Positions 33,201 to 42,200 of a DNA stretch of 64,000 nt are shown here, in pieces; positions within the stretch are counted from its first letter, which is position 1, and the number at the start of each line of letters is the position of its first letter. Source of the DNA: Apus apus (taxonomy: Eukaryota > Chordata > Aves > Apodiformes > Apodidae); assembly GCF_020740795.1 (NCBI RefSeq), contig NC_067282.1:171956274-172020273 (forward strand), written 5' to 3'. The notes beneath the pieces were generated by a model. That model saw only the letters and a program-made list of their open reading frames with translations, did no database searches and was not told where the DNA came from. A program made the translations under genes and the position numbers.

Positions 33201-36200
33201 CCCAGGGTTCAGCCCCTTGCCCCTGGGTCCCTTTGGTGAGTATTTCTTTCTTCTGGATGTATGATAGAATCATAGAATGTGTGGGGTTGGAAGGGACCTT
33301 TAAAGGTCATCTAGTCCAGGTCTCCCTACAGTACACACAGACCTTTTTACCTAGATCAGGTTACTGAGAGCCTTGTCAAGCCTGATCTTGAATGTCTCCA
33401 GGGATGGGGCCTCCACCACCTCTCTGGGCATATATTCTTGAATGGGCCCTCACCCTCTTTGGCTGAGTGACTCATTTTTCTGGGCATCTTGAGTGGCAGG
33501 TTTTCTCTTTTGTGTGTGACATTTGGGCCACCTTCTAAAAGTATTATTCAGTAAACACAGGCATGCTTAAATAAAGTTGTGTAATATTTTATTACTGCCT
33601 GACATTATGCTTGACTTTGGTCCATTGGAGTGCTGAGTAATTTTGATTGGAATAAATCTTCATTTCGAGTAGCTGCTCTGTTTTGTGGGTGACTCCATGG
33701 CTTGTTTAGTTTGTCTGTGTTTTGACTAACTGCTCTATCTGTTTTGTGGGTGTCTCTGCAACAGTTATCACAAGTGATAATCACAGGTAAGATACGAAGA
33801 GATTCCTACTACTTGGAGGTGTGCAGCCTTTCTCTTTGCTTACAGCTGCTTAGATTGCTAAATCCAGTGTACAAAGAACAGGATTCATTCACAGCTCTTA
33901 AAGTTTATAACAGATGTCAATGCTTGCGGAAAAACAACTTCACAACATTGGCAGAAATCCCCCCATCGCTATAAACAAACAAACAAAAAGACCCAAACAG
34001 GAATAAAAAAAACCTGAAAAGGCAGTAAGTGCTAATGCTGAGTGTATTGCCATACTTCAGTTCTGTCTCTAAAATGATACAAAAATAATGACTAGAAGTA
34101 CCTACTTGTAAAACAACTACAATGACTTAGGAATGTCCTACAACAAAACAGGTAATCAAATGTGCAGCAATGTTTTAAGACAAATTATAGATCCTTTTAG
34201 TACTATACTAACTTTAGTATGTATTAACATTACTGTGGTTTTAAAATGCCAGAGAAAGATGTCTAAAGAATACAGTTACTTGCTTGACAAAAATAATCAA
34301 TTTTAAACTCCAATTGTAAAAAGCCTAATAATCAGAAAATGGTTGTGTTTCTTACATGCATACAGCTGAAAAAACAGATCACTTTGACATGTAACTTTCT
34401 ACGATTTAACAAACAAACCCCACAAAATTATTTATAATAGTTTAGCATTTTAATGGTCTGGCAAAAGACAGTTTGAAAACCAAACTTCACTGTAATCCTA
34501 TGCCAAAACAAGAGAATAACTTGCATGAGATACTGACTTCCCTACACACTTAATTAACCCTATGGTTAAACTGCCCTAAATTTTTAACTCCTATAGTGAT
34601 CCACAGTTGAGACATAAATACGGACATCAGCAAAAACAACTGCAACCAGAACAACTCTTTTCCTCTAATAATTGGTGGGCAACTGATACAGATTGCCTGG
34701 ATCAGGTTAGAAAAAAAAAGCAGACAAGGCTTCCTCAGACAACTGGACAAAACCTAGCATTCACAGGCCCTCATCCTTATGGGGGACTTTGACCACCATG
34801 ATACCTGCTGGCAAGGCAACATAGCAGGACACAATCCAGGAAGGTTCTGCAGTGCATTGATGAAAACTTCCTGACACAGGTGATTGAGAAGCCAGCAAGG
34901 AGAGGTGCTTGGCTGGATCAGATACTTACAAATAAGGAGGAACTGGTTGGTGATGTAAAGGTTGTCCCCAAGAGAGCAAGGCAGAAACCAACAACAGAAG
35001 CCTGTACTTGCAGGTGCTAAGAAGGTGACAAGGGCAAGTAAACATGGAGTTACAAAATGAAAGGGTTGCTTAACCAGCCTGATAGGCTTCTATGATGAGA
35101 TAAGTAGCTTGGCACATGATGGGGGAGCAATGGATGTTGTTTATCTCAACATCAGTAAGCCTTTTGACACTGTCTCCTGTAATACCCTCATAGACAAGCA
35201 GATGAAGCATGAATTACATAAGTGTACAGTGAAATGAACTGAAAACCAGCTGAATGGTTGGGCCCACATGATTTTGACCAGTGATAAAGAGTTAAAGAGT
35301 TTCTCAGCCCTGCATTAACTGATATTAACAAACATGTTTGTTAAACTAACTTGAAAATGCCTGTTGTACATTACCAACATTTGATGTTTACCCACAGGTG
35401 CTCAAACACATGGTAAGTTATTATGTGTCAGCAAACTGCCATCTAGCTCTTGACTGGTAGACAAGCTCTGACAGCTCTTGTTTTTACAATTTAAGACATC
35501 ATACTAAGTCTCTAGTCAGCTCTATTCTCCACAATTACCCTTCTTACAGAAAAGTCAGTAGAAAGGAACACCTCTCTGCACATCAACTGCTTCAGAAAAA
35601 ACAGCAGATTTTAAATCTCTTGATTAAAGATGATACTTTTCATTTCAGCAGACAAATACACTTTTTCTTTTGAAGATTCATGGACATTTTTTCCTAACAT
35701 AACTTGGATATACAAACACTGGATTATTTCGAAAAGTATAGCTGAGCATCTTTTATTACATTTTTTTTCTCTTAAAACCAGTATGGGATCTGTCTCAAAA
35801 CCAAAAAAGAATCAAGTAAGAGCCTTCAGTGTTTTCCAAGACAAAAAGGCATATTGTTTTGAACCAGGAAAAAAATTAAGAAAAAACTTACCATATGAAA
35901 ATACTGTAAGAAAACATTCACTATTACAAGGAGAAAAAAAACCCGCAACTATTAATGTTTAAAGTCTTAAATTTTTGTATGGTAAAAAAAATAAATGTGC
36001 TCTGTAGCCAGGGTCTGGCGGCCGGAAGATCTCATGCTGTACAGAAAGACAGGGTCCTCCCCCCCCCCTCGGGACAGCCAATAGTGTATAGACTGTGATG
36101 TAAGCAAAACGGATGTGACGTTGCTCAAGCTATATAATGCCATGCCGCATGGCAATAAACGCCATTTTGCCATCCACCACATTGGTGTCTGTGTGCATAT

Positions 36201-39200: not shown

Positions 39201-42200
39201 AGTTGACCGAGAACTACAATGAGGTCACATAGAGCCTTCCACCAGCCCATGGAACACCCCAGTTTTCGTAATCCCCAAACGTTCTGGTGAAGGGTTTCGT
39301 CTCCTTCATGACCTGCGAGAAGTAAACAAGAGGATCCAACCAATGGGTCCTGTCCAAACGTTATTACCTATGAACTCCATGATACCAGAAGGACAACCTT
39401 GTGCCGTCCTTGACATTAAGGACTGTTTCTTTTCAATACCCCTGCATGAAGAGGACAAGGAGCGGTTTGCTTTTTCTGTCGTGTTCCCAAACAGCCAACG
39501 CCCTAACCTGCGCTTCTAGTGGAAAGTGCTGCCTCAGGGAATGATCAACTCACCTACCATTTGCCAGATTGCAGTGGATCGGGCGCTGGCACCGGTTCGG
39601 TGCAGTGACCCGACAGCGACTATCATTCAGTACATGGACAATATCTTGATTGCCGCGCCGTCAGGAAGTCAGGTGGACCATCTGGTATCAGCAGTTTCGG
39701 AAACTTTAAAAACAAACGGGTTCGAAATTGCGAGCGCAAAAGTCAAAAGAGGACCATGTGTAACCTTTCTGGGAGTGGGGATCACCAGTTCTTATATAAC
39801 ACCCCCCCAAATTAAAATCTGTCGGGACATCAGAACACTCCACGACATGCAACAATTAGTGGGGTCCTTGCAATGGCTCCGCAATATTGTCCTGATACCC
39901 CCTGAAATCATGGCCCCCCTGCATGATCTTCTAAAAGGAAAGAATCCATGGGAACAAAAAAACTCTGACGACAGAAGCAATGAACTCCCTCGATTTCATC
40001 GAGCAACAGGTATCATCAAGCACGCTCGCCAGGTGGAACCCAGGTGTTCCACTCGACCTGTACGTACATTTCACAAAGGGAGGGGGAGTAGGGACACTGG
40101 CCCAGGGGCCACCTGAAAAAGCCCAGCCAATACAACAAGCCATAGTCGAAAGGGCAAATCAAACCCTGAACACTAAATTAGAGGTGCTGGCAAAGACAGA
40201 GGGTTTTGTCAATGTCATCCCCTCAGGAGACCAAGCACGCCTGCTAGCGACTGCTCTTTTAGCACTGAATCAATTTCCTAGGGGGGAAGAGATGAATAGC
40301 CCTACACAAAAACATTGGGCCGCTTGAGCGCTAGAAGAAGGCCCATTGGTTATAATTAGAAATGAGCTAGGGGAATGGGAACAAGGGTGGAGGCTAGTCC
40401 TTACAGGGCGAGGGTATGCTGCAGTCAAAAAAGATGGGAAAGTCAAGTGGTGTCCGCTTAAGTCTATTAAGCCTGACCTAAACTAATGAAAACTGTAAGT
40501 TTTTATCCACAGAACTGGATCACCAGACGTCCTTGTAACCTGCACACCCCGGCAACAAGAGGCACAACAAGATTGGTTTGCATCATGGTTCAACCATTCA
40601 CCATGGCTGAACACCTTGATATCTACCTTGATGGGACCGATCACAATGATCATGATAGCATTAATCTTTGGACGCTGCATACTGAACAGACTCGTGTCAT
40701 TTGTCAGGAGCCAGTTAGATACAGTTAACATCATGTTGGTAGAGCATCAACAATTGCTCTAGGAATATTTTTATACCCTGTTACCCCCAAACTACCTCCT
40801 GTTCAACATGCCTTGTATTTTTCTATTCAAGTTTATAGTATATATTTTTGAGATCGTTGTACGTTTAAATTTTTTAAGATTGTTATAAAGTTTAAGATAA
40901 GAACAGGATGTTTTATATCTAGGATTTTTAGACATGTATTTTTTTAGGACTGTTATATTTAGCCAATTTAATTATGCATAGGGAGGGGGGAAATGTAGCC
41001 AGGGTCTGGCGGCTGGAAGATCTCGTGCTGTACGGAAAGACAGGGTCCTCCCCCCCCCCCTCGGGACAGCCAATAGTGTATAGACTGTGATGTAAGCAAA
41101 ACGGATGTGACGTTGCTCAAGCTATATAATGCCGTGCCGCATGGCAATAAACGCCATTTTGCCATCCACCACATTGGTGTCTGTGTGCATATGGACCGAG
41201 CGACCAGGGGTTGGTCGCCGTGCCGTTCCTGAACCAGGTCGCCTTGCCTTTCCGAAGGCAACAGTGCTCTCTTTCACATGAAAAATTGTTAAAAGTTAAT
41301 GGCAGAGTATCTGTAAATTATGCAAAGTAGTAGGCTATTTGATTGGGTGATTTATTCCATGGTGAAGTCTAAAAAAAACAGATCAGAATTAAGTCTGCTA
41401 CTTTTTATTATACACATATATTGATATAGCATACATATATTGATATAATCAGACATATATATACCAATATATATTGATAAATTGAAAATTCATATTTTTA
41501 CCATATAAGAAAAACAACTTTTTAACAGATAATTACTAGAGAACTTATGCTGGCTGTTGATTTGGTAATTCATGGAACTTCAAAACTTAGGCTTCCTTCT
41601 CCTTGACTCAAGTTTTATAATCACAAATTGGATGAAACATTTTAATTGTACAGTTTTCCTGAACATAAGTAATTTGATTTTGCAGTACAGTGGCTTAAGC
41701 TACTTGATGTTTTGGTACCTTAGTTCAAAACATCCTCTTGATAACAAACCATTGAAATAGGGTTGGCTGGTTGTTCTTCTGCATGTGGATTAATCTCTCA
41801 AGAAGGATACACATATGAAAAAAAAACCTGTCTGCACACAGATCACAAATTTCCATTCAAAGACTGGGATCAGCAGCAACTAAACTAGCAAACAACTGGG
41901 ATCTCCATGCTTGGACGAGTGTGTCACATGTATGACATTAAAGAGACAGTTATTCACAGAAAAGTTAGTATGACAAAATTTTCTGCAGAATTGCACATTA
42001 ATTCTGAGTAATATCTATTTTGGGAACAGATAACAGCAAAGTCATTCCAGGAGAAGTTACTCTGAGCTCCCTAGAAAAAGTTTCACACAAGCCAAGCTTC
42101 CTGAGGAACAAACATCCCAGGAGCCAATATAAACAGTTTTGGCTCTCAGAGAGCCAAAAGTCCAGTTATTCTTAAGCCTCACTGAGCCTGTGCACATTTT

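Follow-up and report, generated by a model that had tools for sequence, protein, structure and literature searches.

A provirus at positions 36003-41263 of a 64,000-nt stretch of the Apus apus genome (hereafter the window) is very probably a defective member of the TgERV-F lineage of avian endogenous retroviruses (ERVs), lying on the alpharetrovirus side of class II, with gag, pro and pol laid out for two -1 ribosomal frameshifts, and carrying the remnant of an acquired, gamma-type envelope gene (env). The lineage, reportedly described by Henzy et al. in 2014, is already known; the window provirus is a further member of it, and the two-shift layout of TgERV-F is not claimed here as new.

Three reading frames and two conserved slippery sites

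As the sequence-only reading of this stretch had reported, gag, pro and pol occupy three frames (0, 2 and 1, respectively), each step being -1 relative to the preceding gene, and the slippery heptamers GGGAAAC at 38504 and AAATTTA at 39073 stand in exact X XXY YYZ register within the gag/pro and pro/pol overlaps (241 and 259 nt), with the pro frame closing one sense codon past AAATTTA. A lone in-register heptamer is weak evidence, because codon shuffles of the overlaps yield at least one in 22% (gag/pro) and 28% (pro/pol) of trials; as judged from the sequences, it is conservation across loci, rather than any single heptamer, that carries the two-shift claim. A search of the genome (1.10 Gb in 110 contigs) gave 31 matches, which were reduced to 29 loci (L021-L049, L021 being the window provirus itself) by leaving out L050 and one 35-base match. 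These loci represent two subfamilies approximately 15% apart. GGGAAAC is exact in 26 of the 28 loci that span the gag-pro site, the remaining two reading GGGAAAT, and AAATTTA is exact in all 26 loci that span the pro-pol site, the window being included in both counts.

Copies with the protease (PR) in the gag frame, which the sequence-only reading had regarded as contrary to its view, are found twice among the 26 loci with a recognised protease motif. In both exceptions (L043 and L045) a single inserted nucleotide, at 38418 or 38427, accounts for this arrangement; the insertions fall in a C-rich part of the nucleocapsid (NC) region, where L032 also bears a 1-nt insertion. In the other 24 loci the protease lies outside the gag frame, with no CCHC motif upstream in its own frame. 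Such small insertions and deletions do, then, arise in the gag-pro region, and they could suggest that the separate frame is a product of decay, the protease having once been fused to Gag and split off by mutation. We consider this very unlikely, since the separate frame is kept in 24 of 26 loci of two subfamilies, together with slippery sites and stems.

Consensus folding of 11 picked sequences (the window and ten other loci) places a predicted stem 6 nt past each heptamer. The gag-pro stem has 10 pairs, nine of which are retained in all 11 sequences; when the window sequence is folded alone, the stem predicted here begins directly at or after the heptamer, unlike that of the consensus. The branched pro-pol structure comprises 24 pairs, of which one is broken in one copy and another is changed on both sides in two copies. 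Over 91 nt the pro-pol region is much more stable than its shuffles (z -3.55), while a 61-nt cut that omits the 3' arm is not (z -0.48). Together, these signals suggest that two successive -1 shifts, at GGGAAAC and then at AAATTTA, each with a stem downstream, would yield Gag-Pro and Gag-Pro-Pol alongside Gag in fuller members of the family.

Affinities of the encoded proteins

The matrix (MA), PR, reverse transcriptase (RT) and integrase (IN) sequences of the window family (the provirus and its relatives) lean to the alpharetrovirus side, with modest support in the case of PR. For MA, the Pfam family Retro_M was matched and a search at E 1 returned four matches and nothing else, all of which we take, from their virus names, to be alpharetroviral matrix sequences; the alpha-like matrix proposed from the sequence alone is borne out to this extent. 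The best match of IN is to 7jn3 (303 bits); it scores 235 bits to 1c0m, an entry named Rous sarcoma virus (RSV) integrase, and 150 bits to both 7usf and 3jca; 7jn3 is presumably RSV, and 7usf and 3jca mouse mammary tumour virus (MMTV). PR scores 51.7-52.7 bits to the proteases of avian sarcoma virus (ASV), myeloblastosis-associated virus (MAV) and RSV, and 31.5 bits to 1nso, which we take to be the protease of Mason-Pfizer monkey virus (MPMV). In the PR tree the window family groups with MAV at 85/82 (unstarred). The best solved match of the capsid (CA) is RSV. Avian leukosis virus (ALV) gave no match in the set of viral contigs, and when the swift genome was searched for a near relative of ALV, the 109 matches to the MAV protease, of 131 candidates, reached 40% at best.

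The RT tree contains 59 rows, for which 50 reference rows were hand-picked from 245 proteins and 49 were used; P0063, L046 and L040 (the last without a long open RT piece) were omitted. Within it the window family forms a clade at 100/100, to which the EAV-HP group (88/73) and then the protein P0084 (98/86) attach, and at a wider level rows of lymphoproliferative disease virus (LPDV), Apteryx and Mycteria join this set at 98/87. This alpha-side set plus one eagle row is split at 99/99 from MMTV, the bovine CH15 row, the hamster intracisternal A particle and L070, a betaretrovirus-like locus of the swift's own genome; the end branch of LPDV is long (0.88). Zebra finch rows fall inside the 100/100 clade (RT identity of 83 and 81% for the proteins P0065 and P0068), and the clade is also found, by tree position, in hummingbird, bustard, crane and songbirds, with sandgrouse and pigeon relatives recognised by RT identity alone. 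Every relative that carried a species name in the database search came from a bird. Phylogeny had been proposed as a check from the outset: the RT tree favours the alpha placement, and the CA tree (13 rows, unrooted, with rows lacking a BLAST match at E 0.1 left out) gave no clear placement.

Several observations weigh against the assignment to the alpharetrovirus side and to TgERV-F, or against the two-shift interpretation. The RT tree holds EAV-HP and LPDV but no RT of ALV or RSV, and is rooted on a long-branched outgroup, human immunodeficiency virus type 2 (HIV-2); in pairwise comparison RT is more similar to MMTV (46% identity) than to LPDV (44%). Among the protease matches, tethered dimers of the HIV-1 enzyme reach 51.1 bits, near the RSV-type proteases, through two stretches. 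The 98/98 set of the PR tree that holds the window family and MAV also contains L070 and the Mycteria row, and 3 of the 18 inner branches of this tree are listed as starred. In CA, BLAST scores are alike for L070 (52 bits) and RSV (51 bits), with a guineafowl row of the EAV group higher (64 bits). The gag-pro stem is no stabler than its shuffles (z 0.89 over 90 nt and -0.03 over 60 nt). Finally, TgERV-F is matched here through published descriptions.

The shared 98/98 set, the two-shift layout and the presence in L070 of an in-register GGGAAAC at its gag-pro junction (955-961) would all suit an alpha/beta recombinant, in which pro and the shift signals came from a betaretrovirus and the rest from an alpharetrovirus. 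This origin is very unlikely given that PR favours the ASV, MAV and RSV enzymes over 1nso (52-53 against 31.5 bits) and joins MAV, and that MA, RT and IN are all alpha-side. Furthermore, the pro frame of the window gave RVP as its sole Pfam match at E 0.01, with neither dUTPase nor G-patch, in agreement with the sequence-only reading, whereas L070, which served as a positive control for dUTPase, encodes dUTPase and RVP in one 285-aa frame. An alpha/beta mosaic within gag-pro-pol is accordingly disfavoured by the affinities of IN, RT, PR and MA, and as far as tested, CA aside, these sequences give no indication of one.

The database labels of some relatives (POK11 and 'group K'), the two shifts, and a best solved RT match to 7sr6, which we take to be the RT of MMTV, might be read as signs of a true betaretrovirus-like (ERVK) element whose long terminal repeat (LTR) and matrix resemble those of alpharetroviruses by chance. 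This is extremely improbable: IN scores twice as high to RSV, the RT tree is split at 99/99, and the ranking of 7sr6 says little, since no alpharetroviral RT could be recognised by name among 60 of the 207 solved chains.

A gamma-type envelope and a tRNA-Phe primer site

The clear recombinant part of the family is instead env, which by its sequence is gamma-type and would have been taken from another retrovirus. In the env-bearing copy L086, two halves of env match PF00429 (TLV_coat) at 2.2e-18 and 1.5e-90, and the transmembrane (TM) tail retained in the window matches the same family at 2.8e-15. The best solved match of the L086 TM is an Env related to murine leukaemia virus (123 bits), and a CX6CC motif is present. 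Avian gamma-type envelopes are described in PMC3758190 as having a fusion peptide flanked by a cysteine pair. L086 has a hydrophobic stretch near residue 477, likely the fusion peptide, and no cysteine between residues 443 and 557, so that the pair is absent around this stretch; PF00429 was the only match of this env at E 0.01.

The primer binding site is complementary to the 3' end of tRNA-Phe. The genome contains 77 occurrences of the 15-mer complementary to 36277-36291; among seven small stretches tested away from known copies, two are tRNA-Phe(GAA) genes that end in the 15-mer, and with the 3' CCA of mature tRNAs appended the match to the primer site is 18 of 18. Fuller relatives would thus be primed by tRNA-Phe, and the 'F' of TgERV-F presumably refers to the same primer; a literature search for an avian ERV with a tRNA-Phe primer found no paper. 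The same primer match is seen in L083, an older relative that is 69-74% identical to the window provirus. It is also seen approximately 3 kb from two RT sequences that are 51% identical to MMTV (C33:3123596 and C33:9609013), and this type of primer may therefore not be confined to the window family. Neither the primer site nor the gamma-type env remnant, nor the loss of ribonuclease H (RNase H) and IN sequence described below, had featured in the sequence-only reading.

Deletion derivatives and spread within the genome

The window copy has lost RNase H, much of IN and most of env, and both of its deletion junctions recur elsewhere. Among 40 scored places (83 candidates), 28 span the env-deletion junction. 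At nine of the other 12 the downstream part reappears about 100 nt further on, in what looks, from these alignments, like a second env deletion, and three show neither arrangement. For the RNase H/IN junction, 40 matches were scored (88 candidates): 4 of them, counting the window provirus, run across it, and the remaining 36 are half-matches, some of which are two halves of one copy. One of the four junction-sharing copies lies on contig C33; it is bounded by LTR ends and a duplication (GAGGAG) of its own, and its 15-nt left flank differs from that of the window provirus (5 of 15 positions identical). Other copies in the genome have long open frames for pol and env. Because three further places carry the integrase deletion, one of them with its own target duplication, mobilisation in trans is suggested, and the integrase-deleted form was most likely copied by the enzymes of fuller relatives. 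The order of events would be that env, once acquired, was lost in the window copy and many others, and that in a few copies, the window copy among them, RNase H and much of IN disappeared as well, this form then being copied in trans.

Three other LTR pairs were examined, all with 6-bp duplications; two show no differences over 268 sites and one shows two. Some copies of the family are therefore young, because their LTR pairs show few or no differences.

Several further observations concern the distribution of these elements. A longer copy of the window family, at C1:171917165-171924520, shares a contig with the window copy at a distance of about 75 kb. Contig C33 makes up 1.0% of the assembly, yet holds 13 of the 77 primer-site matches and 10 of the 40 scored LTR matches; we infer a contig dense in ERVs, perhaps the W chromosome. 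A shorter derivative form, with its two LTRs separated by 4.22 kb, occurs at C1:73989833, C1:32985117 and C1:11149752, and one of the three pairs has identical LTRs and a 6-bp duplication.

Organisation of the window provirus

The features of the provirus are collected in Table 1. Its LTRs are 269-270 nt long with TG...CA termini; over 269 aligned sites, six transitions and one gap separate them, a Kimura two-parameter distance of 0.023. The positions of TATATAA (36131) and AATAAA (36154) would fit a short R, which the sequence-only reading had put at 21 nt. Recognisable domains are Retro_M, Gag_p24, CCHC, RVP, RVT_1 and the RT thumb. In addition to the deletions, gag is interrupted by in-frame stops at 37200 and 38028, upstream of its natural stop at 38736, and RT has stops at 39220 and at 39517, a change of frame near 39965 and a YMDD box that is altered. 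Elsewhere in the window, 17681-18396 and 42947-43648 hold three paired inverted-repeat blocks, 73-84% alike and approximately 25 kb apart; two open reading frames tested within these blocks gave no Pfam match.

Table 1. Features of the provirus in the Apus apus window.
Feature	Position	Strand	Basis
Target-site duplication GTGCTC, 6 bp	35997..36002 (left), 41264-41269 (right)	.	Flank comparison
5' LTR	36003..36271	+	Matches in the genome (40 scored, 262 candidates)
TATATAA, likely TATA box of U3	36131..36137	+	Sequence motif
AATAAA, likely poly(A) signal ahead of short R	36154..36159	+	Sequence motif
Primer binding site, 18 nt complementary to tRNA-Phe 3' end	36274..36291	+	Genomic tRNA-Phe match, CCA added
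gag, frame 0: MA, linker, CA, two CCHC, tail	36441..38738	+	Domain and frame reading
Matrix (Retro_M) and GC-rich linker	36441..37199	+	Pfam match
Capsid piece (Gag_p24)	37569..38027	+	Domain match
pro, frame 2, RVP alone	38498..39085	+	Pfam, frame reading
Slippery heptamer GGGAAAC, gag to pro	38504..38510	+	X XXY YYZ register
Consensus 10-bp stem, 6 nt past first heptamer	38517..38552	+	Consensus folding
Slippery heptamer AAATTTA, pro to pol	39073..39079	+	X XXY YYZ register
pol 5' part, RT in frame 1	39080..40135	+	Domain match, RT tree
Branched stem-loop, 6 nt past second heptamer	39086..39165	+	Consensus folding
Deletion junction, ~1.1 kb gone (RNase H and IN N-terminal part)	40135..40136	+	Measured against other copies
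C-terminal IN remnant in frame 2, interrupted by a stop at 40325	40136..40486	+	Sequence comparison
TM tail of gamma-type env	40541..40762	+	PF00429, 2.8e-15
Env deletion junction, ~1.6 kb gone, 4-nt overlap	40558..40561	+	Measured against other copies
Putative polypurine tract	40980..40993	+	Sequence motif
3' LTR	40994..41263	+	LTR repeat comparison

Relation to known retroviruses and implications

With ALV/RSV, EAV-HP and LPDV the window family shares the affinity of its MA, PR, IN and RT, and ALV/RSV also have a 6-bp duplication and AAATTTA at the protease end, as found in the window provirus. It differs from alpharetroviruses in its protease, which is not in the gag frame and sits behind one more shift, in its env, which is gamma-type though not avian gamma-type, and in its tRNA-Phe primer, that of ALV being tRNA-Trp.

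The -1/-1 pattern is common to the window family, betaretroviruses and intermediate beta-like ERVs. PMC3835772 gives one shift for alpharetroviruses and two for beta- and deltaretroviruses, and Jern et al. (2005; PMC1224870) report this pattern for the intermediate beta-like ERVs of chicken and reptiles, the alpha ERVs of chicken tending towards it. MPMV and other type D betaretroviruses resemble the window family in being class II elements with two shifts and an acquired gamma-type env, according to PMC3758190 and PMC3835772, but belong to a different pol lineage. The window family is set apart from betaretroviruses in general by an RT outside the beta rows and by the lack of a dUTPase or G-patch match.

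The closest counterpart is TgERV-F, an intermediate avian lineage described in PMC3758190 and PMC10536682; in the latter it is an alpha lineage whose env is of mammalian gamma-type. Like the window family, TgERV-F is a class II gag-pol element with alpha and beta features, basal to alpharetroviruses, bearing a gamma-type env and present in several birds; the window copy differs by the deletions in pol and env described above. Of the two origins offered by the sequence-only reading, the intermediate alpha/beta lineage therefore holds in substance, as one described in these papers, while the alpha/beta recombinant is not supported by MA, PR, RT and IN.

On the preferred placement within the TgERV-F lineage, the separate protease frame would probably be an ancestral state shared with betaretroviruses and retained, ALV-type viruses having fused protease to Gag. 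We suggest, tentatively and with somewhat more doubt than confidence, that the window family lies inside the alpharetroviral clade, nearer to EAV-HP than LPDV is, and still uses two shifts, and that a form lacking both integrase and env has been mobilised in trans within one bird genome. The family offers a many-copy example of the two-shift layout on the alpharetrovirus side and, within a single genome, a case of env and integrase loss followed by further spread. The former bears on the origin of the single shift of the leukosis viruses: if the suggested placement is true, the fused gag-pro of ALV-type viruses would be a late simplification, one that possibly occurred more than once.

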